This document shows, piece by piece, positions 1-14,022 of a stretch of DNA of 64,000 nt (positions are counted from its first letter, which is position 1; each line of letters begins with the position of its first letter). The DNA lies in NCBI RefSeq assembly GCF_003570885.1, contig NZ_QXJC01000005.1:186001-250000 (forward strand). The letters are read 5' to 3'. Made by a program: the position numbers and the translations under genes. The DNA comes from Simplicispira hankyongi (GTDB lineage Bacteria > Pseudomonadota > Gammaproteobacteria > Burkholderiales > Burkholderiaceae_C). The notes below the pieces were generated by a model. The model ran no database searches. It had not been told where the DNA came from and saw only the letters and a list, made by a program, of their open reading frames with translations.

Positions 1-826
1 GCAGCCACAGCGGCATGGAGAGGGCCGCGCAGAGAAAGTAGGTGGCGAGGAACCAGGGCTCCTGCATCCCAGGGACTTGCAGAACATCCTGCACGAAGAA
101 CAGCACCAGCGTGGCCGGAATGGCGCTGGCGATGCCGCTCACCACAAACACCAGCAGCAGGCGCCGGAAGGCGCGCACGCGCCAGGGCTGCCACAGCGCG
201 GCCCGCGGTTCAGGACCCATGGGGACGGCCGCAGTGGGCTGGGGCGCGCGCGTCCAGGCCAGCCAGCCCAGCAGGAGCAGCGTGCAGAACACCACCAGCG
301 CCGCGCACAAGCCAGCCAGCAATGGCAGAAGCGATGCCAGCACCACGCCCGCCAGCCCCGCCGATTCGCGCCAGGCCATGATGCGTCCGCGCTGCAAGTC
401 GCTTTTTCCGAGACGCGCCCCCCAGGCCTGGTGGCTGATGCCGAGCTGGCTCCAGGCGGCGCTGGTGAGCACCAGTCCGGCGAAGGCCCAGGCGGCCAGC
501 GCGAGCGGCGTGCGCGGCAGCGGGAACCACAGCGCTGCCATGCCCAGCGCGAGCAACAGGGCCGAAAGCGCGCCTGCCGCCAGGCTCCAGCGCGCCGGGC
601 CACTCCCAAGCCGGTCGGCCAGGCGTCCCAGCAGCGGGTCGGTCAACGCATCGAAAGCCCGCGCCGCGAGCAGCACCGCGCCCAGCGTCGCCAGCGGCAT
701 GCCAAATTCGCGCGCGTACAGATTGGGCAGCAGCACGTAGAGCGGCAGCGCGGCGAACGCCAGCGGCAGGGCCAGCAGGCTGTAGCTGGCCAGCTGGCGG
801 CGGCTGAACTCGGCGGAGTGGGACAT
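1..826 (-). CDS. MFS permease, GPH (sugar:cation symporter)-like, partial
   Basis: Inner-membrane transporter of the major facilitator superfamily. The minus-strand reading frame is open from the ATG at 826 to the window edge, so the C-terminus is missing. After a short start (MSHSAEFSRRQLASYSLLA) come repeated hydrophobic segments and a loop with DALTDPLLGRLADR, which resembles the D-x-x-x-DP-x-x-G-x-x-SDR loop of GPH symporters. The start lies two bases after the stop of the chalcone-isomerase-like gene, so it is the last visible gene of the five-gene lipid operon. Similar permeases accompany cyclopropane-synthase/DUF1365 clusters in other proteobacteria. Substrate unknown; a lipid or lipid-precursor cargo is only inference from context. 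Confidence 0.8.
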   Translation of the reverse strand, partial: MSHSAEFSRRQLASYSLLALPLAFAALPLYVLLPNLYAREFGMPLATLGAVLLAARAFDALTDPLLGRLADRLGSGPARWSLAAGALSALLLALGMAALWFPLPRTPLALAAWAFAGLVLTSAAWSQLGISHQAWGARLGKSDLQRGRIMAWRESAGLAGVVLASLLPLLAGLCAALVVFCTLLLLGWLAWTRAPQPTAAVPMGPEPRAALWQPWRVRAFRRLLLVFVVSGIASAIPATLVLFFVQDVLQVPGMQEPWFLATYFLCAALSMPLWL

Positions 827-828
827 GG

Positions 829-1374
829 TCAAGGCGTCGCCAGCAGCGCCGCGCGTAGCGTGGGTTCCGAAGTTTGGGGCGACAGCCAGATGCCAAAGAA
901 GAGGCGGGCAAACAGCGGGTCGTCGATCTGTCCGCGGGGCTGGCCGTTAAAGAGAAAGCGCACGCCCTGGCCTGGTTGGTACAAGCCGACCAGGCGGTCG
1001 CCCGCCGCCACGTCGGGCAGCAGCGCCGCGAGCTGTGCCTGCCAGTGCCCGGTTTGTGCTTCGGTCAGCGCTTGCTGGCGCTGCATTTCTTCGAGGGAGC
1101 GCCCGGCGATCGCACGGGCCGAGAATCCACGGGCGTAGCGCAGTTCCAGCGCCAGGCTCTGGTGGGTCCAGGTGCGCGGGGTGAAGCCGGGCTGCACCCA
1201 CAACTTCGCCTGGTACACCTCCATGCCAAGGAAGCGCAGCGTGCCGCTGCCTGCAAGGTGCGCCCCCGCCAGGGGCGTGTGCGGGGTGCCGCTGGCGAGT
1301 GCTGTCGCCTGAAAAAATAAGAGAAAAAGGCCTCTGGCGCTTATTTGGTAAGCGCTAGCAGCTATGGTTTTCAT
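829..1374 (-). CDS. chalcone isomerase-like secreted protein
   Basis: A 181-residue protein with an N-terminal hydrophobic segment and then a chalcone-isomerase-like domain (GSGTLRFLGMEVYQAKLWV, later LVGLYQPGQGVRF and DPLFARLFFGIWL). Bacterial members are mostly uncharacterised; the fold binds hydrophobic ligands including fatty acids. Its ATG overlaps the TGA of the upstream methyltransferase as ATGA, so it is probably translated by coupling. The first 20 or so codons, including the start and the whole hydrophobic signal segment, lie inside a dispersed palindromic repeat (1311-1380), so the export signal seems to have been supplied by the repeat. Likely periplasmic; role in modifying or carrying lipid is inferred from the operon. 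Confidence 0.8.
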   Translation of the reverse strand: MKTIAASAYQISARGLFLLFFQATALASGTPHTPLAGAHLAGSGTLRFLGMEVYQAKLWVQPGFTPRTWTHQSLALELRYARGFSARAIAGRSLEEMQRQQALTEAQTGHWQAQLAALLPDVAAGDRLVGLYQPGQGVRFLFNGQPRGQIDDPLFARLFFGIWLSPQTSEPTLRAALLATP

Positions 1375-1380
1375 AGTTTT
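1311..1380. repeat. dispersed palindromic repeat copy 1 (in the start of a gene)
   Basis: Contains the arms GGCGCTTATT and AAGCGCTAGCAGCTAT that recur at 11202, 13956, 23973, 28306 and 54629. It overlaps the end of the methyltransferase gene and the first codons of the chalcone-isomerase-like gene. Confidence 0.8.
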
Positions 1381-2600
1381 CTCTTGTGCAGGGTGTACTG
1401 CACCACGTCGATGTCGCCCATGGCAAACGCGGCTTCGCAGTAGGCCAGGTAGAACTCCCAGATGTGCAGGAAGCGCTGGTCAAAGCCCTGGCGCAGGATC
1501 TGCGCGCGCTCGGCAATGAAGCGCTCGCGCCAGCGCTTGAGCGTCTCGGCGTAATCAAAGCCAAAGGCCAGTTCCTCGGTCACGGTGAGACCGGCCGCCT
1601 CGGCTTCGCGGCGGAACTCGCGCGGACAGGGCAGGCAGCCGCCGGGGAAGATGTACTGCTGGATGAAATCGGTCGAGCCGATGTAGCGCTCGAACAAGCG
1701 GTCGTCGATGACGATGCTCTGGATGCAGGCGCGCCCGCCGGGTTTGAGCAGGCGCGCGACGGCCTGGAAGTAGGTGGGCCAGTACTCGCGCCCTACGGCT
1801 TCCACCATCTCGATGGAGCAGATGGCGTCGAACGGTGCATCGGCTATGTCGCGGTAGTCCTGCAGGCGCAAATCGCGCTGCGCAGCGGGCACGCCGAGCC
1901 GCTCGAGCCGCGCATTGGCAAAGGCCAGCTGCTCGGTCGAGAGCGTGACGCCGGTAATGCTGGCGCCAAACTCGGTCGCCGCCATTTCGGCGAGAGCCCC
2001 CCAGCCGCAGCCAATCTCCAGCACCCGCTCGCCCGGCTGCACGCGCGTTTCAAGCAGGGCGCGGCGTACCTTGGCCTGCTGAGCGGCGTGCAAATCCTGC
2101 GTAGCCTCGGGGCCGGAGAACAGCGCCGACGAGTAATTCATCGTCTCGTCGAGCCAGAGCTGGTAGAAGGCGTTGCCCAGGTCGTAGTGGGCGTGGATGT
2201 TCTTCTTGCTGCCGGCGCGCGTGTTGCGGTGCAGCAAATGGCGCAGGCGCGAGACCAAGCGCCCGGCCCAGTTGCCGTAGACCACGCTTTCCACGGCATG
2301 CCGGTTGGCGATCAGGAGCTTGAGCAGGTCGGTCAGATGCGGCGTGCTCCAGTCGCCTGCGATGTAGCTCTCGGCAAAGCCAATGTCGCCCGAGCGCAGT
2401 GCCGCGCCGCAGACCTTCCAGTTGTGGAGCACGATGGCGCCATGCGGCGCACCGCCGGGGCCGAAATGGCGCAGGGCGCCGTCCGGCAGTTGCAGCGTCA
2501 GGCTGCCGTGCTGCAGGCGTGCCAGCAGGCGCAGCACGGTGCGCGCTGCGGCGGGAATGCCGGGCGGCAGGGCGAGGGGGTTGGCGGTGGTGGTGTTCAT
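1371..2600 (-). CDS. cyclopropane-fatty-acyl-phospholipid synthase family methyltransferase
   Basis: SAM-dependent enzyme of the CFA synthase family, 409 residues, expected to add a one-carbon unit to unsaturated acyl chains of membrane phospholipids. Visible motifs are NIHAHYDLGNAFY, the SAM-binding VLEIGCGWGAL, SIEMVEAVG and QYIFPGGCLP. The EAVG motif replaces the EHVG of the classic E. coli enzyme, as in relatives clustered with DUF1365 and amine oxidases, some of which make methylated or furan fatty acids. I chose the ATG at 2600 because GGAGA lies just upstream and it overlaps the DUF1365 stop as ATGA; a longer frame starts upstream. The exact product (cyclopropane or methylated chain) cannot be read from sequence. 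Confidence 0.92.
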   Translation of the reverse strand: MNTTTANPLALPPGIPAAARTVLRLLARLQHGSLTLQLPDGALRHFGPGGAPHGAIVLHNWKVCGAALRSGDIGFAESYIAGDWSTPHLTDLLKLLIANRHAVESVVYGNWAGRLVSRLRHLLHRNTRAGSKKNIHAHYDLGNAFYQLWLDETMNYSSALFSGPEATQDLHAAQQAKVRRALLETRVQPGERVLEIGCGWGALAEMAATEFGASITGVTLSTEQLAFANARLERLGVPAAQRDLRLQDYRDIADAPFDAICSIEMVEAVGREYWPTYFQAVARLLKPGGRACIQSIVIDDRLFERYIGSTDFIQQYIFPGGCLPCPREFRREAEAAGLTVTEELAFGFDYAETLKRWRERFIAERAQILRQGFDQRFLHIWEFYLAYCEAAFAMGDIDVVQYTLHKRKL

Positions 2601-3466
2601 GGCTGTCTCCTCGCTTCCCGGTGCTGGGGGTATTGCTGGTGGCTGATGGGCGTCGGCGGCGGCGCTGGTTTGCTGCGAAAGCCCACGCGCAGGGTCCACA
2701 GGCGCAGCGCCTGCCAGTGGATGCGGGCGATGACGGCGAGCGTCATCACCGGGTAGCGCCAGAGCGCACGGCGCAGCGCCGCGCGGGTGGCCGGTTCGAG
2801 CGCCCCGCTGACGCTGGTCTCGATGAGAGCGCCGGCCGTGTCGTCGTGGTCAATGCGCGCCACGGTACGCAGCACGCCGTCGTTTTGGCTGAACAGAAAG
2901 CGGAAGCGGTAGCGGCCGGAGACGTCGCAAAACGGCGAGACGTGGAACACCTTTTCCGCCCGCAGCTCCTTGCCCCAGGCGGGTTCGTCGAGCAAATAGC
3001 AGTGGCGCTCGCCGAAGGTGTTGTTCACCTCGACGACGATGGCCCGCAGGCTGCCGTCGGCGCGCTCGCAGTACCAGAAACTCACCGGCTTGAAGGTGTA
3101 GCCCAGCACGCGGGGGTAGCAGTGCAGCCAGACTTCGCCGCTGGCGTCGTCGATTCCCTCCGCGTGCAGCAACGCGTCCAGCCAGGCGAGCGCGCCGCCC
3201 GACGCGGCGGGGCGGCCATCGCCGTGGTCCACATCGTGAAAGCTGATCGCGCCGCGCCGGTTCACCGCCAGTGCTCCCGCATCGGCGCCCCGGGCCAGCG
3301 CGCGCATTGGCAGCAGCAGAAAAAATGTCGCGTAACGGAAGCGGTTCTGCCTGGGCCGCAGGCGCGTGTGGCGCACCTGGCCAAAGCCGATGAGCGGCCG
3401 TGCCGGGGCGCAGGCCGCGCCGGGGCTGGAAAACTCCCGCGGTGCCGCCGCGCTGGGGGTGGTCAT
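2597..3466 (-). CDS. DUF1365 family protein
   Basis: A 289-residue member of DUF1365 (COG3496), recognised by RHTRLRPRQNRFRYATFFLLLP near the N-terminus, YPRVLGYTFKPVSFWYCE in the middle and VVEVNNTFGERHCYLL. No biochemical function is firmly assigned; the family is nearly always found between an FAD amine oxidase (COG2907) and a cyclopropane-synthase homologue, exactly as here. Both ends overlap neighbours by four bases (ATGA), which implies tightly linked translation and probably stoichiometric production. An arginine- and proline-rich tail follows the conserved domain. A role in the same fatty-acid modification pathway is inference from this conserved linkage. Confidence 0.9.
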   Translation of the reverse strand: MTTPSAAAPREFSSPGAACAPARPLIGFGQVRHTRLRPRQNRFRYATFFLLLPMRALARGADAGALAVNRRGAISFHDVDHGDGRPAASGGALAWLDALLHAEGIDDASGEVWLHCYPRVLGYTFKPVSFWYCERADGSLRAIVVEVNNTFGERHCYLLDEPAWGKELRAEKVFHVSPFCDVSGRYRFRFLFSQNDGVLRTVARIDHDDTAGALIETSVSGALEPATRAALRRALWRYPVMTLAVIARIHWQALRLWTLRVGFRSKPAPPPTPISHQQYPQHREARRQP

Positions 3467-4767
3467 GCGGCCTCCGCCAGTGTGCCGGGCAGACTGGCGC
3501 GCACGCCCTCTGCCGCCGCCAGGCCGGATTTCAGTCCGTCCTCATGGAAACCATAGCCTGCCCAGGCGCCGGCAAACCAGGTGTGCTGCCGGCCTTGCAG
3601 GTTGTCCAACTGGCGCTGTGCGCGGATCGCTGCCGCGTCGAACACCGGGTGGTCGTACGCGTATTCGCCCAGCACCTGCTCGGGCGCGATGGTGCCGACC
3701 GGGTTGAGCGAGACGACCACCTGCTGGGCGAACGGCAGGGGCTGCAGGCGGTTGATCAGGTAGTGCAGGCAGACGCGCGCCGATTCCAGCCGGACCTGGG
3801 GCGCGCGTTCGTAGTTCCAGGCTGCCCAGGCAGCGCGGCGCTGCGGCAGCACGCGGGTGTCGGTGTGCAGCACGGCGCGGTTGGCCTGGTAGCGAATGGC
3901 GCCGAGCAAGGCGCGCTCCTGCGCGCTGGGTTGGGCGAGCAGCGCCAGTGCCTGGTCGCTGTGCGTCGCCAGCACCAGTCGGTCAAAGTGCTCCGTGCCG
4001 TGGTCGGTGGCGATGCGCACGCCGGCAGCGTCGCGTTCGATGCGGCGCACGGGGGTGTTACAGCGCGCATCGGACAGGCCCTGGACGATCTTCTGCACGT
4101 AGTTGCGGGAACCCCCGGCTACGGTGAACCACTGCGGCCGGCCGGTGATTTGCAACAAGCCGTGGTTGTGGCAGAAGCGGATCATGGTCGCCACGGGGAA
4201 CTTGAGCATCTGGTCTGTCGGGCAGCTCCAGATGCAGCCCAGCATGGGCAGCAGATACCAGTCCCGGAACGCCTTGCCCAAGCGGTTCTCGGCGAGAAAC
4301 TCGCCCAATGGCTGCGCCAGCGCACGCTCCTGGTTCGCCTCGGCGAGCCGGGTGCACACCCGGTTGAAGCGCAGCAGATCGGCCAGCATGCCGAGAAAGC
4401 GAGGGCTGGCCAGGTTCCGGCGCTGGGCGAAGACGCTGGCGAGGCTGCTGCCGCTCCATTCCAGGGGATTGGCGCCATGCACGCGCGGCACCTGGACCGA
4501 GAACGACATGTCGGAGGGCGCGGTGACCACCCCCAGCTCGGCAAACAGCGCCAGCAGGGTGGGATAGGTGCGCTCGTTGAGCACCAGAAAGCCGGTGTCC
4601 ACGCCATGCGTCACCAGGCCGCCTTCGCCTGGCAGCGTGACGTTGGCGGTGTGCGCGTGGCCCCCGAAATGATCGCCCGCTTCGAACAGCGTGGTGGCGA
4701 CATGGGGCGCCAGGCGGTGCGCGGCCGCGAGGCCGGCGATCCCGGCGCCAACGATGGCGATTCTCAT
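3463..4767 (-). CDS. FAD-dependent amine oxidase family protein (COG2907)
   Basis: A 434-residue flavoprotein. It begins MRIAIVGAGIAGLAAA, the GxGxxG dinucleotide-binding motif at residues 7-12, followed by the acidic-end and GG doublet FEAGDHFGGHAHT. Further in are YLLPMLGCIWS and, near the C-terminus, WFAGAWAGYGFHEDGLKSG, which closes the FAD site. It resembles carotenoid-desaturase/amine-oxidase folds but belongs to the group linked to DUF1365 and CFA-type methyltransferases, where oxidation of a modified acyl chain is a plausible reaction. It is the first gene of the overlapping operon; the 241-base gap upstream, with an inverted repeat, should hold its promoter if it is not read through from the peroxidase gene. 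Confidence 0.9.
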   Translation of the reverse strand: MRIAIVGAGIAGLAAAHRLAPHVATTLFEAGDHFGGHAHTANVTLPGEGGLVTHGVDTGFLVLNERTYPTLLALFAELGVVTAPSDMSFSVQVPRVHGANPLEWSGSSLASVFAQRRNLASPRFLGMLADLLRFNRVCTRLAEANQERALAQPLGEFLAENRLGKAFRDWYLLPMLGCIWSCPTDQMLKFPVATMIRFCHNHGLLQITGRPQWFTVAGGSRNYVQKIVQGLSDARCNTPVRRIERDAAGVRIATDHGTEHFDRLVLATHSDQALALLAQPSAQERALLGAIRYQANRAVLHTDTRVLPQRRAAWAAWNYERAPQVRLESARVCLHYLINRLQPLPFAQQVVVSLNPVGTIAPEQVLGEYAYDHPVFDAAAIRAQRQLDNLQGRQHTWFAGAWAGYGFHEDGLKSGLAAAEGVRASLPGTLAEAA

Positions 4768-4809
4768 GCCGGCCTCCGCTCAGGAGACCCAGCCATGAAG
4801 AAGAAAAAA

Positions 4810-4902
4810 GTTGCGAAGCGTCCCGACGCGAAGAAGAGAGGGAGGGAGGAGAAGCGCCTCGGGATTTCAATCGACCCACGGGGAGCCGAAAGGCTTCGCA
4901 AC
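4810..4902. repeat. inverted repeat upstream of the amine-oxidase gene
   Basis: GTTGCGAAGC at 4810-4819 and its exact complement GCTTCGCAAC at 4893-4902, 73 bases apart, in the 241-base gap before the FAD amine-oxidase start. It could loop DNA or RNA or mark paired regulator sites. Nothing else was recognised in 4768-5008. Confidence 0.5.
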
Positions 4903-5008
4903 ACTAAGAAAACACTGCGCACAATGCACCAGCGTTCTGCATGGAGTGTGTGCCTTGCGGGGAAGTTCCGCAAATTTTTCTGGCAAAGACAACAAATTGT
5001 GCCTGCCG

Positions 5009-5632
5009 TCATGGCGCACTCCGGGGCATGGGGGTGGCCAGCTGCCGCTCCAGCGAACGCACCAGGCGGGCATTGTCCGGGCCCGTCATGCTGGCAAAGG
5101 CGTCCACCACGCGGCCGTCCCGGCCGATCAGGTACTTGTAGAAATTCCAGCGGGGTGGCTGACCGCTCTGCGCGGCCAATTCGCGGTAGAACGGCGAGGC
5201 CTGCGCACCCGCCACGCTGCTCTTGGCAAACATGGGAAATTTCACGCCGTAGGTGTTTTCGCAGAAGTCGGCGATCTGCCGGTTGTCGCCGCTCTCCTGG
5301 GCAAAGTCGTTGGAGGGAAAACCCAGCACCACCAGGCCCCGGTCCCGGTAGCGCGCGTACAGCGCTTCCAGCCCGGCGTACTGCCCGGTGAAGCCGCAGT
5401 AACTGGCCGTGTTCACCACCAGCAGCACCTTGCCCGCGTACTGGCAAAGCGCTTGAGGTTTTTCGTCCTGCAAACGGTTGAAGCTGTGCCGCAGCAGCGG
5501 CGGGCAGGAAGCCGGTGTCTCAGTAGCCGCGACCGCTTGGCTGGGCGCTGGCGTCGCGGCAGGGCTGGACACGCCGGCAAGCAGGCCGAGGGCGAAAGCC
5601 GCAGCACTTCGGGGAAAGGGAAAAAATTTCAT
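5009..5632 (-). CDS. glutathione peroxidase-like protein, exported
   Basis: A 207-residue thiol peroxidase of the glutathione peroxidase family with an N-terminal signal peptide (MKFFPFPRSAAAFALGLLAG), so it should act in the periplasm on hydrogen or lipid peroxides. The active-site block VNTASYCGFTGQY has the peroxidatic cysteine; LGFPSNDFAQE and WNFYKYLIGRDG follow. The usual glutamine of the catalytic tetrad (FPCNQF in most members) is aspartate here (FPSNDF), while the tryptophan-asparagine pair is kept. It starts at 5632, immediately after two direct repeats that may bind the divergent regulator. It is co-oriented with the lipid operon but separated by 241 bases. Confidence 0.88.
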   Translation of the reverse strand: MKFFPFPRSAAAFALGLLAGVSSPAATPAPSQAVAATETPASCPPLLRHSFNRLQDEKPQALCQYAGKVLLVVNTASYCGFTGQYAGLEALYARYRDRGLVVLGFPSNDFAQESGDNRQIADFCENTYGVKFPMFAKSSVAGAQASPFYRELAAQSGQPPRWNFYKYLIGRDGRVVDAFASMTGPDNARLVRSLERQLATPMPRSAP

Positions 5633-5686
5633 TTGTCTAATCTATTTGTCTAAGACATATGTAGAATTTAACCATATTTTGTCCAA
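5632..5686. promoter_or_regulatory. candidate CarH-like operator and divergent promoter region
   Basis: TTTGTCTAA occurs twice, at 5632-5640 and 5645-5653, with a third one-mismatch copy (TTTGTCCAA) at 5678-5686; the second copy is part of the palindrome TGTCTAAGACA (5647-5657). On the minus strand TTGGAC and TACATA, 17 bases apart, make a plausible sigma-70 promoter for the peroxidase gene, so a protein on these repeats would block it. MerR/CarH proteins are known to bind short direct repeats or palindromes in such gaps; binding here is inferred. Confidence 0.5.
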
Positions 5687-5768
5687 CTCTGCTGGCCCTC
5701 CGCCATGTCCAATACGCGGGTGGTGCAGCACTGGATTCGCCGATGTCTGCGCGCCAACCTGTTGTCCC

Positions 5769-6752
5769 GTGAACCCTCCACCCTTGTCCTGTCCAGAGAT
5801 TCCCGCCGCCTATTCCATTGCAGCGGTGGAGCGCGAGAGCGGCCTGTCCAAAGACACCTTGCGCATGTGGGAGCGGCGCTACGGTTTCCCGGCGCCCTTG
5901 CGCGATGCACAGGGTGAGCGCCTCTACCCGGCGGCGCAGGTCGAGCGCCTGCGGCAGTTGCGGCGTCTGATCCATGCCGGGCACCGGCCGGGCAAGGTGG
6001 TGGCGTTGGGGGCGGACGAACTGGCAGTCCTGCTGGCCTCTGCCGCCGTCCGGACTCCCGCGCCGGCATCGCGTACCGGCCGCAGCGCGCGCGCTTTGCC
6101 CGCCGTGGCGGCCCAGGGTGTGCTGGTGGCGCAATGCCTGGATCTGATCGCTGCGCACGACGTGGCGGCGCTGCGTGAGCAGCTCACGCGCGCCGTGCTG
6201 ACACTGGGGCTTCAGGGCTGCGTACTGCAGCTCGTCGCCCCTTTGACGCGCGAGGTCGGCCTGGCCTGGCTGCAGGGGCGCTTTCAGGTGTTCGAGGAGC
6301 ACCTCTATACCGAGTGCGTGACGGGTGTCCTGCGCGGCGCCATTGCCAGCGTTCCCGCGACGGCAGCAGCAGGAACGCCGAGGGTGCTGTTGACAACCTT
6401 CACCCAGGAACAGCATGGCCTGGGGCTGCTGATGCTTGAGGCGGTGCTGGCGCTCCAGGGCTGCTTGTGCCTGTCGCTGGGAACGCAGACCCCGCATGTG
6501 GACATCGTTCGCGCCGCACAGGCGTTTCGCGCGGACATCGTGGCGCTGAGTTTCAGTGGCGTCCTGGCGCCCGCCCAGGTACGCACAGGCTTGCGCGAGC
6601 TGCGCGCGCAGTTGCCTATGCCGGCTCGGCTGTGGGCGGGCGGGCAGGGTGCAGGCGTGATACCCGACGAGGCGGCCGGAGTGGACTTGGTGCGCGAGCT
6701 GGAAGCAGTTGCACAGGCACTGGCAGACTGGCGGGTCGCCAACACCCGGTGA
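5769..6752 (+). CDS. MerR-type regulator with B12-binding domain, CarH/LitR-like photoreceptor
   Basis: A 327-residue transcription factor. Residues 14-80 form a MerR helix-turn-helix (AYSIAAVERESGLSKDTLRMW, then ERRYGFP). Residues 115-190 are the helical B12-binding domain and 204-327 the Rossmann-like cobalamin-binding domain. W167, E177 and H178 make the Wx9EH motif, and E214-H216-G219 the ExHxxG motif, both diagnostic of CarH/LitR proteins that bind adenosylcobalamin and release DNA in light. The start is a GTG at 5769 without a clear ribosome site; no in-frame ATG lies close to the HTH. It is divergent from the peroxidase/lipid genes, its likely targets. Light control is inferred from motifs and context. 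Confidence 0.85.
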   Translation: MNPPPLSCPEIPAAYSIAAVERESGLSKDTLRMWERRYGFPAPLRDAQGERLYPAAQVERLRQLRRLIHAGHRPGKVVALGADELAVLLASAAVRTPAPASRTGRSARALPAVAAQGVLVAQCLDLIAAHDVAALREQLTRAVLTLGLQGCVLQLVAPLTREVGLAWLQGRFQVFEEHLYTECVTGVLRGAIASVPATAAAGTPRVLLTTFTQEQHGLGLLMLEAVLALQGCLCLSLGTQTPHVDIVRAAQAFRADIVALSFSGVLAPAQVRTGLRELRAQLPMPARLWAGGQGAGVIPDEAAGVDLVRELEAVAQALADWRVANTR

Positions 6753-13955: not shown

Positions 13956-14022
13956 GGTTTTTAGCAAAATTGGCCGCTAGCGCTTATCCATAAAGCGCTT
14001 GCAGCTATTATTTTTGTAGTTA
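13956..14022. repeat. dispersed palindromic repeat copy 3
   Basis: Intergenic copy with GCTAGCGCTTATCC and AAGCGCTTGCAGCTATTA arms, between the efflux operon start and the glnE stop. The arms can form a stem-loop. Confidence 0.8.

Follow-up and report, generated by a model that had tools for sequence, protein, structure and literature searches.

Does a vitamin B12 photoreceptor adjust the membrane lipids of Simplicispira hankyongi, and through which enzymes? The question is raised by a divergent gene pair near the left end of a 64,000-nucleotide stretch of contig NZ_QXJC01000005.1 (assembly GCF_003570885.1, positions 186,001 to 250,000), here called the window. A sequence-only reading had proposed a light- and B12-controlled operon for membrane-lipid remodeling, with a regulator of the CarH/LitR kind at 5769 to 6752. 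Our comparisons uphold the lipid assignment and narrow it, by the match to UfaD, UfaO, and UfaM, to furan fatty acids. They also make it probable that the regulator and the divergent genes gpx-ufaDOM form a light-response module in which an adenosylcobalamin (AdoCbl) repressor would sit on an operator, light would release it, and furan-fatty-acid synthesis would follow, with an extracytoplasmic function (ECF) sigma-type promoter and a leader RNA as a second input.

According to this model, AdoCbl-bound oligomers of the regulator would occupy an operator just downstream of the leftward promoter in the dark, repressing both gpx-ufaDOM and the regulator's own gene. Green or blue light would break the Co-C bond, and the oligomer would leave the DNA. 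Methylated furan fatty acids could then be made, with UfaM methylating 18:1 chains, UfaD desaturating them, and UfaO inserting O2. Together with the peroxidase, these lipids may protect membranes from oxidants that form in light. The ECF-sigma-type promoter and the structured leader RNA probably give ufaD a second input that does not depend on light. If correct, the model connects light sensing by B12 with furan fatty acids, which are thought to shield membranes from light damage. The ufa genes would also be a case of one biosynthetic operon coupled, depending on lineage, to ChrR, LOV-LitR, or AdoCbl-LitR as the sensor.

The divergent gene pair and its operator

When we rechecked open reading frames, strands, and Pfam domains, the layout agreed with the earlier description. 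The regulator gene lies on the plus strand (5769 to 6752; GTG start at 5769, 327 amino acids) and points away from a minus-strand operon led by gpx, which encodes a glutathione-peroxidase-like protein (5009 to 5632; GSHPx). Next come the ufaD-like gene for a COG2907 flavin oxidase/desaturase (3463 to 4767; Amino_oxidase), the ufaO-like gene for a DUF1365 protein (2597 to 3466; 257.6 bits), the ufaM-like gene for an S-adenosylmethionine-dependent methylase of the cyclopropane fatty acid (CFA) synthase type (1371 to 2600; CMAS), a gene for a chalcone-isomerase-like protein (CHI; 829 to 1374; Chalcone_3, 48.6 bits), and a permease gene. A longer GTG frame for ufaM reaches 2699, and the ATG at 2600 is the most likely start. 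The operon had been called overlapping, and ATGA overlaps do join ufaD to ufaO, ufaO to ufaM, and ufaM to the CHI gene; the permease is the exception, its ATG lying 2 nucleotides past the CHI stop. The peroxidase had been called secreted, which fits a signal-like N-terminus that we judged by eye; CHI has a signal-like N-terminus too.

On comparative grounds, this arrangement is not chance, because the same divergent pair is conserved across the family. Our survey of 399 family genomes gave a LitR match (E ≤ 1e-10) in 192 and a UfaD match (E ≤ 1e-60) in 314. Among the best 150 of the 192 LitR genomes and the best 150 of the 314 UfaD genomes, LitR and ufaD were divergent, with a gap of at most 1442 bp, in all 71 genomes that had both among the matches listed. 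A divergent ufaD was likewise present in 66 of the 71 named LitR loci that have at least 2.2 kb of upstream DNA.

Between the two genes of the window lies a palindromic operator-like site, TTTGTCTAAGACATA (5645 to 5659), with half-site-like sequences on either side (TTTGTCTAA at 5632-5640 and TTTTGTCC near 5681-5688). Its consensus, TTTGTCYWRGACAAA, was read by eye from 26 regions, and conservation within those regions is therefore circular; in many relatives another such site lies at a distance of about 21 or 62-63 bp. Two further tests are more independent, though some of their loci apparently come from the same organisms as the earlier set (e.g., L221 and G354). A score of at least 13 was reached in 72 of the 80 named LitR loci and in none of the 80 after shuffling. 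We then scanned 59 ufaD loci up to 2.5 kb upstream of ufaD, or less at locus ends. All six with an adjacent LitR of the AdoCbl type scored at least 13; none of the 53 loci with no such LitR reached 14, and two reached 13, with the site inside or beside gpx. In the source genome, exact TTGTCYWRGACA occurs once, at the window operator.

LitR genes also occur in other settings. A Comamonas endophytica plasmid (L082, 2872-7412) carries an orphan LitR of the same type with its operator, flanked by chemotaxis genes, with a BLUF photoreceptor gene in the vicinity and no ufa genes in 13.9 kb; the LitR of Eleftheria terrae is also an orphan. In 4 of the 80 named loci a photolyase gene follows the regulator at a distance of no more than 1.3 kb downstream, and in L100 one stands beside it as well. 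The loci with photolyase next to a regulator of the same type are L100, L188, L192, L207, and L213; in L208 it is about 5 kb away.

Ligand residues of the regulator and the active site of UfaM

The six residues that the sequence-only reading had picked out in the regulator are all present and invariant in our 14-row and 44-row alignments: W167, E177, and H178 of the Wx9EH motif and E214, H216, and G219 of the ExHxxG motif. The GG pair (G291, G292) is invariant too, and S261 is present, with the SxT/V step reading SxS. Three Pfam domains scored above their cutoffs, namely MerR_1 (PF13411), the four-helix B12-binding_2 domain (PF02607; 29.9 bits, cutoff 23), and the Rossmann B12-binding domain (PF02310; 39.3 bits, cutoff 32.1), and phmmer matched the protein to structures 3whp and 5c8d of Thermus thermophilus CarH (TtCarH). 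An AlphaFold model built from 44 aligned sequences, used in place of a single-sequence fold with a predicted local distance difference test (pLDDT) score of 43, had a pLDDT of 89.1. Its top Foldseek matches in the PDB were T. thermophilus CarH (E ~1e-17), with a template modeling score of about 0.5 over the full chain and at least 0.8 of the target for B12-domain structures. In TtCarH numbering, G128, W131, E141, H142, E175, H177, G180, and G199 are kept in all 80 named relatives and P203 in 79. The genome also encodes two corrinoid adenosyltransferase families, of the BtuR and PduO types. From the lower-ligand and Wx9EH motifs, the CarH fold match, the conserved operator, the consistent operon pairing, and these AdoCbl-making enzymes, we infer with good support that the operon is under light/B12 control.

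We considered two other LitR classes for the regulator. Class II was rejected because the regulator keeps both B12 domains and the ligands; the Pseudomonas-type regulators L101, L103, and L104 lack most AdoCbl-ligand residues. Class III (Burkholderia), taken as described in PMC9758184, with a C-terminus that resembles no known domain, was set aside because the regulator has a B12-binding domain.

Downstream, a flavin desaturase, a DUF1365 protein, and a CFA-type methylase stand together in one operon, and by families and gene order they appear to match UfaD, UfaO, and UfaM of furan-fatty-acid synthesis. In the account of PMC7380195, RSP1091 is UfaD, a flavin fatty-acyl desaturase, and RSP1090 is UfaO, a DUF1365 protein needed to insert O2 into the furan ring; the Rhodopseudomonas palustris proteins RPA2571, RPA2570, and RPA2569 (UfaD, UfaO, and UfaM) suffice for furan acid. 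At least 36 of 39 ufaD loci drawn from across the phylum preserve the D-O-M order; the exceptions are L114 and L116, where a UfaM-like match lies upstream on the opposite strand, and L121, where the UfaO match overlaps UfaM.

The sequence-only reading had left the product as a methylated, cyclopropane, or furan fatty acid. The active site of the methylase speaks against the cyclopropane. Residues C139, E239, H240, and H266 of Escherichia coli Cfa are S, E, A, and Q in the window UfaM, and all 119 other aligned operon copies have E, A, and Q after a first residue of Ser, Ala, or Gly. The second CFA homolog of the genome (C17:145066) reads C-E-H-H, and nine of ten non-operon paralogs beside these loci have E-H-H (the exception is L116); Cys comes first in 6 of the 10, so Cys139 is less telling. 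In cyclopropane synthase, Glu239, His266, and Tyr317 contact a bicarbonate thought to deprotonate the intermediate, as described in PMC11387697. The window UfaM keeps the equivalents of Glu239 and, by pairwise alignment, Tyr317, and it has lost one of the three bicarbonate ligands. Because His266 is replaced by Gln, a cyclopropane product appears unlikely on sequence grounds.

A structured leader RNA before ufaD

The least expected piece of the module is a 109-nucleotide structured leader RNA of ufaD (4804 to 4912, minus strand), which sits between gpx and ufaD on the ufaD strand. It forms a three-way junction of helices P1, P2, and P3, with a pyrimidine-rich loop capping P3 and a U-rich stretch after P1. 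We aligned 39 of 46 pyrimidine-run candidates taken from 148 upstream regions, excluding five near-duplicates (L161, L166, L185, L221, and L240) and two false matches (L256 and L259). Both sides had changed, in at least one sequence, at 20 of the 23 base pairs. Covarying cells numbered 147 versus 44 in shuffles, and none of 500 shuffles reached the observed value on any measure. Shifting pair partners by one column lowered pairing from 94.6% to 47% or less. There were 100 G-U cells versus 12 A-C cells, an excess indicating that the ufaD strand is the RNA strand. The folding energy of the 206-nucleotide region at 4765-4970 is not unusual (z = -1.5), so it is the covariation that supports the RNA.

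Applied to 166 sources, a covariance model recovered 46 copies at E ≤ 1.5e-22, one in the window and the others in 25 of 85 and 20 of 80 sources; 39 of the 46 were training members, including the window at 109.5 bits; the other seven were L161, L165, L166, L185, L218, L221, and L240. A candidate copy in L083 was set aside at a model E of 0.81. Every copy lies just upstream of ufaD except that of L218, in which ufaD would fall past the end of the locus. The RNA occurs with LitR and also without it, in L160-L166, whose genomes are outside the 192 LitR-positive ones. Among the 39 phylum loci it was found in three (L089, L091, and L092), all among the eight from the window's own family, and in none of the other 31. 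Of the 51 named loci where LitR and ufaD stand at least 300 bp apart, 19 have the RNA; of the 18 with a shorter gap, none does. Rfam 15 gave no match overlapping the leader at E ≤ 5 in window positions 4700-5800 or at E ≤ 1 in four other loci. A blastn search with one query, the L172 copy, found no match among named plasmids. A nucleotide search, with the covariance model not applied genome-wide, gave no convincing second copy in the genome (best other E, 2.4).

Just upstream of the leader in the window is an ECF-sigma-type promoter-like site, GAACTT-N17-TCCA (4942 to 4968, minus strand; GGAACTT from 4969). Using the pattern GAACT[TCG]-N14-18-TC[TCG][AG], which was chosen post hoc from the sequences, we found sites within 170 nucleotides upstream of 25 of the 46 leaders, a count that includes near-duplicate loci (e.g., L160, L161, and L166), versus 0.49 expected from shuffles. 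The site stands at the same distance (-56) in 15 of the 46 copies, and seven of the 25 are at unrelated distances. We take these sites to resemble RpoE-type (envelope stress) promoters.

The P3 loop, CUUCUCCUCCCUCCCUCUCUUCUUC, is anti-ribosome-site-like. For pairing of the loop with the ribosome site, a conceivable mechanism, the longest run averaged 4.9 versus 3.6 when shuffled, across the 20 of 24 loci with an identifiable start. The same loop presumably resembles a Rho entry site and might be compared with the presumed CUCC loops of Rhodobacter CcsR small RNAs. It seems to us an even call whether the leader belongs to an unlisted class of cis-regulatory RNA with a long CUCC-rich loop, which would act behind an ECF-sigma-type promoter to tune furan-fatty-acid synthesis while a B12 photoreceptor without the upper histidine adds light control. 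Its mode would then be attenuation, Rho control, ribosome-site control, or release of a small RNA, and membrane photoprotection would be under two independent layers. In the open-access literature searched, no title or abstract start gave an account that fits the leader RNA, which offers a new handle on regulation of the ufa operon.

Alternatives and known systems

Several results weigh against a light-response module built on an AdoCbl repressor. About half of the listed UfaD genomes (79 of 150) have no LitR among the matches listed, so the ufa operon often lives without LitR, and a divergent ufaD is missing at 5 of the 71 named LitR genes for which sufficient upstream sequence was available. 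A sigma-70 scan of the divergent promoter region in the window found none over threshold, and the repressor geometry was therefore read by eye from weak, genus-conserved hexamers. One-mismatch operator sites in the genome are no commoner than in the control (49 versus 53); being at background, they led us to drop the idea of a wider LitR regulon. Photolyase was also dropped as a coregulated target, since the source genome has a single match with no operator in its 10-kb region. The remaining points concern the regulator itself. The equivalent of His132 is absent in all 80 relatives (M, A, V, L, I, S, E, T, or G), with Leu in the window; the window regulator has Gln in place of G174 in the GxxH signature, a position that is Gly in only 13 of the 80; and the score of 113.9 bits misses the 400-bit cutoff of the NCBIfam CarH equivalog NF052513. 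The regulator carries three of the four signatures in the SignatureFinder set for light-responsive cobalamin-binding domains (GxxW, EH, and GxxxP), with QEQH in place of GxxH. Orthology to the T. thermophilus protein was rejected on the missing His132, the missing signature Gly, and the missed cutoff.

The loss of His132 and the variable G174 would suit a regulator that depends on a partner photoreceptor for its light response, or that senses B12 status or redox and not light through AdoCbl, with the operon still making furan fatty acids; as described in PMC9758184, the class II LitR of Pseudomonas acts through a short LOV protein. We regard this as unlikely, since the AdoCbl residues lost in Pseudomonas-type regulators are invariant in those of the window type, and since light converts CtMerR from tetramer to monomer even though its residue 132 is Arg (PMC11796333). 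From that light monomerization, a CtMerR-like light state would be expected for our regulator by analogy. TtCarH itself gives a mixed picture: in the account of PMC10442372, His132 is important for tetramer dissociation and most H132A protein stays tetrameric in light, but a contrary earlier report of H132A disassembly is also cited there. Regulators that lack His132 as a clade put to the test the way in which B12 photoreceptors let go of DNA, for which TtCarH H132A and CtMerR give conflicting answers.

Light might instead be uninvolved, and the operon driven mainly by the leader RNA together with an ECF sigma factor, as may hold in relatives without LitR. The promoter-like site and leader occur both with and without LitR, as this would have it, but the LitR-operator-ufaD linkage is tight, and we find the idea rather improbable. 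It is more doubtful still that cyclopropane or simple methyl-branched fatty acids are the product of the operon, with the UfaD- and UfaO-like proteins having another role. CFA synthases are the closest solved relatives of the methylase, and the Glu239 and Tyr317 equivalents are shared with them; the Gln at position 266 in every operon copy, where E. coli Cfa, C17:145066, and nine of the ten paralogs keep His, argues otherwise.

As a probable light-response module under an AdoCbl-type LitR, the locus combines traits of several known systems. It shares with TtCarH and class I LitR the MerR DNA-binding domain, the four-helix and Rossmann B12 domains, and the Wx9EH, ExHxxG, GxxxP, and GG motifs, yet identity to TtCarH is about 30%, and the targets are non-carotenoid genes. 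Its operator is palindromic, unlike the tandem 11-bp repeats reported for CarH in PMC9304148, where CarH operators are also called plastic. The class II LitR-LOV systems of Pseudomonas putida and P. mendocina (PplR and PmlR) likewise pair a LitR-family repressor with light-responsive photolyase, short-chain dehydrogenase, FAD oxidoreductase, and ufaM genes; P. mendocina shows 25- to 33-fold light induction, with LitR-family control of ufaM (PMC9758184). That class is described in PMC9758184 as unable to bind B12, with a LOV partner and the operator TGTACA-N12-TGTACA, in contrast to TTTGTCYWRGACAAA here, and PMC8508746 treats the LitR-UfaM system of P. putida as class II. Rhodobacter sphaeroides shares furan fatty acids, a UfaM methylase, and an operon that joins UfaD, UfaO, and other genes (RSP1091-1087 plus ufaM, under ChrR), but its sensor is the ChrR anti-sigma factor (PMC7380195). 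CtMerR (PDB 8jbs), another MerR-family B12 photoreceptor without His at 132 (PMC11796333), matches the regulator weakly in sequence (28.9 bits). LitR control of ufaM is therefore already published for Pseudomonas, and the module is a new variant because the published class is thought not to bind B12. Going by titles, the openings of abstracts, and counts of terms, no paper found in the open-access literature appeared to connect CarH or a B12-type LitR with furan fatty acids.

Among the 39 phylum loci, an ECF sigma-ChrR pair lies near ufaD in 13, three of them in the window's own family (L106, L108, and L112), and a photolyase match in 11; a TetR gene or a LitR of the Pseudomonas type is present in others. 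The source genome has no match to ChrR (TIGR02451), which does not fit membership in an RpoE-ChrR regulon. In L093, L095, and L098 a TetR gene takes the divergent position beside ufaD, possibly a further regulator swap.

The peroxidase gene precedes ufaD in several lineages, some of which have LitR and some not, and a CHI gene follows ufaM in most LitR loci having enough DNA. The MFS_2-type permease gene (1 to 826, minus strand) runs past the window edge; its complete 431-amino-acid product, read from L088, scores 163 bits against PF13347. Further left, outside the window, come the rest of this gene, a gene for a DUF3833 protein (240.7 bits), and one for a short-chain dehydrogenase. Azoarcus sp. 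KH32C is annotated in the same order (FAD oxidoreductase, DUF1365, CFA synthase family, chalcone isomerase, MFS, DUF3833, and short-chain dehydrogenase), with a divergent MerR gene. The window also contains five copies, at up to 3 mismatches and with 0 expected, of a dispersed palindromic repeat, ATAGCTGCTAGCGCTT-N6-TAAGCGC. Four are at 13980, 23987, 28320, and 54636; the fifth (1337-1365, minus strand) falls in the start of the CHI gene, within the region coding for the signal-like N-terminus.

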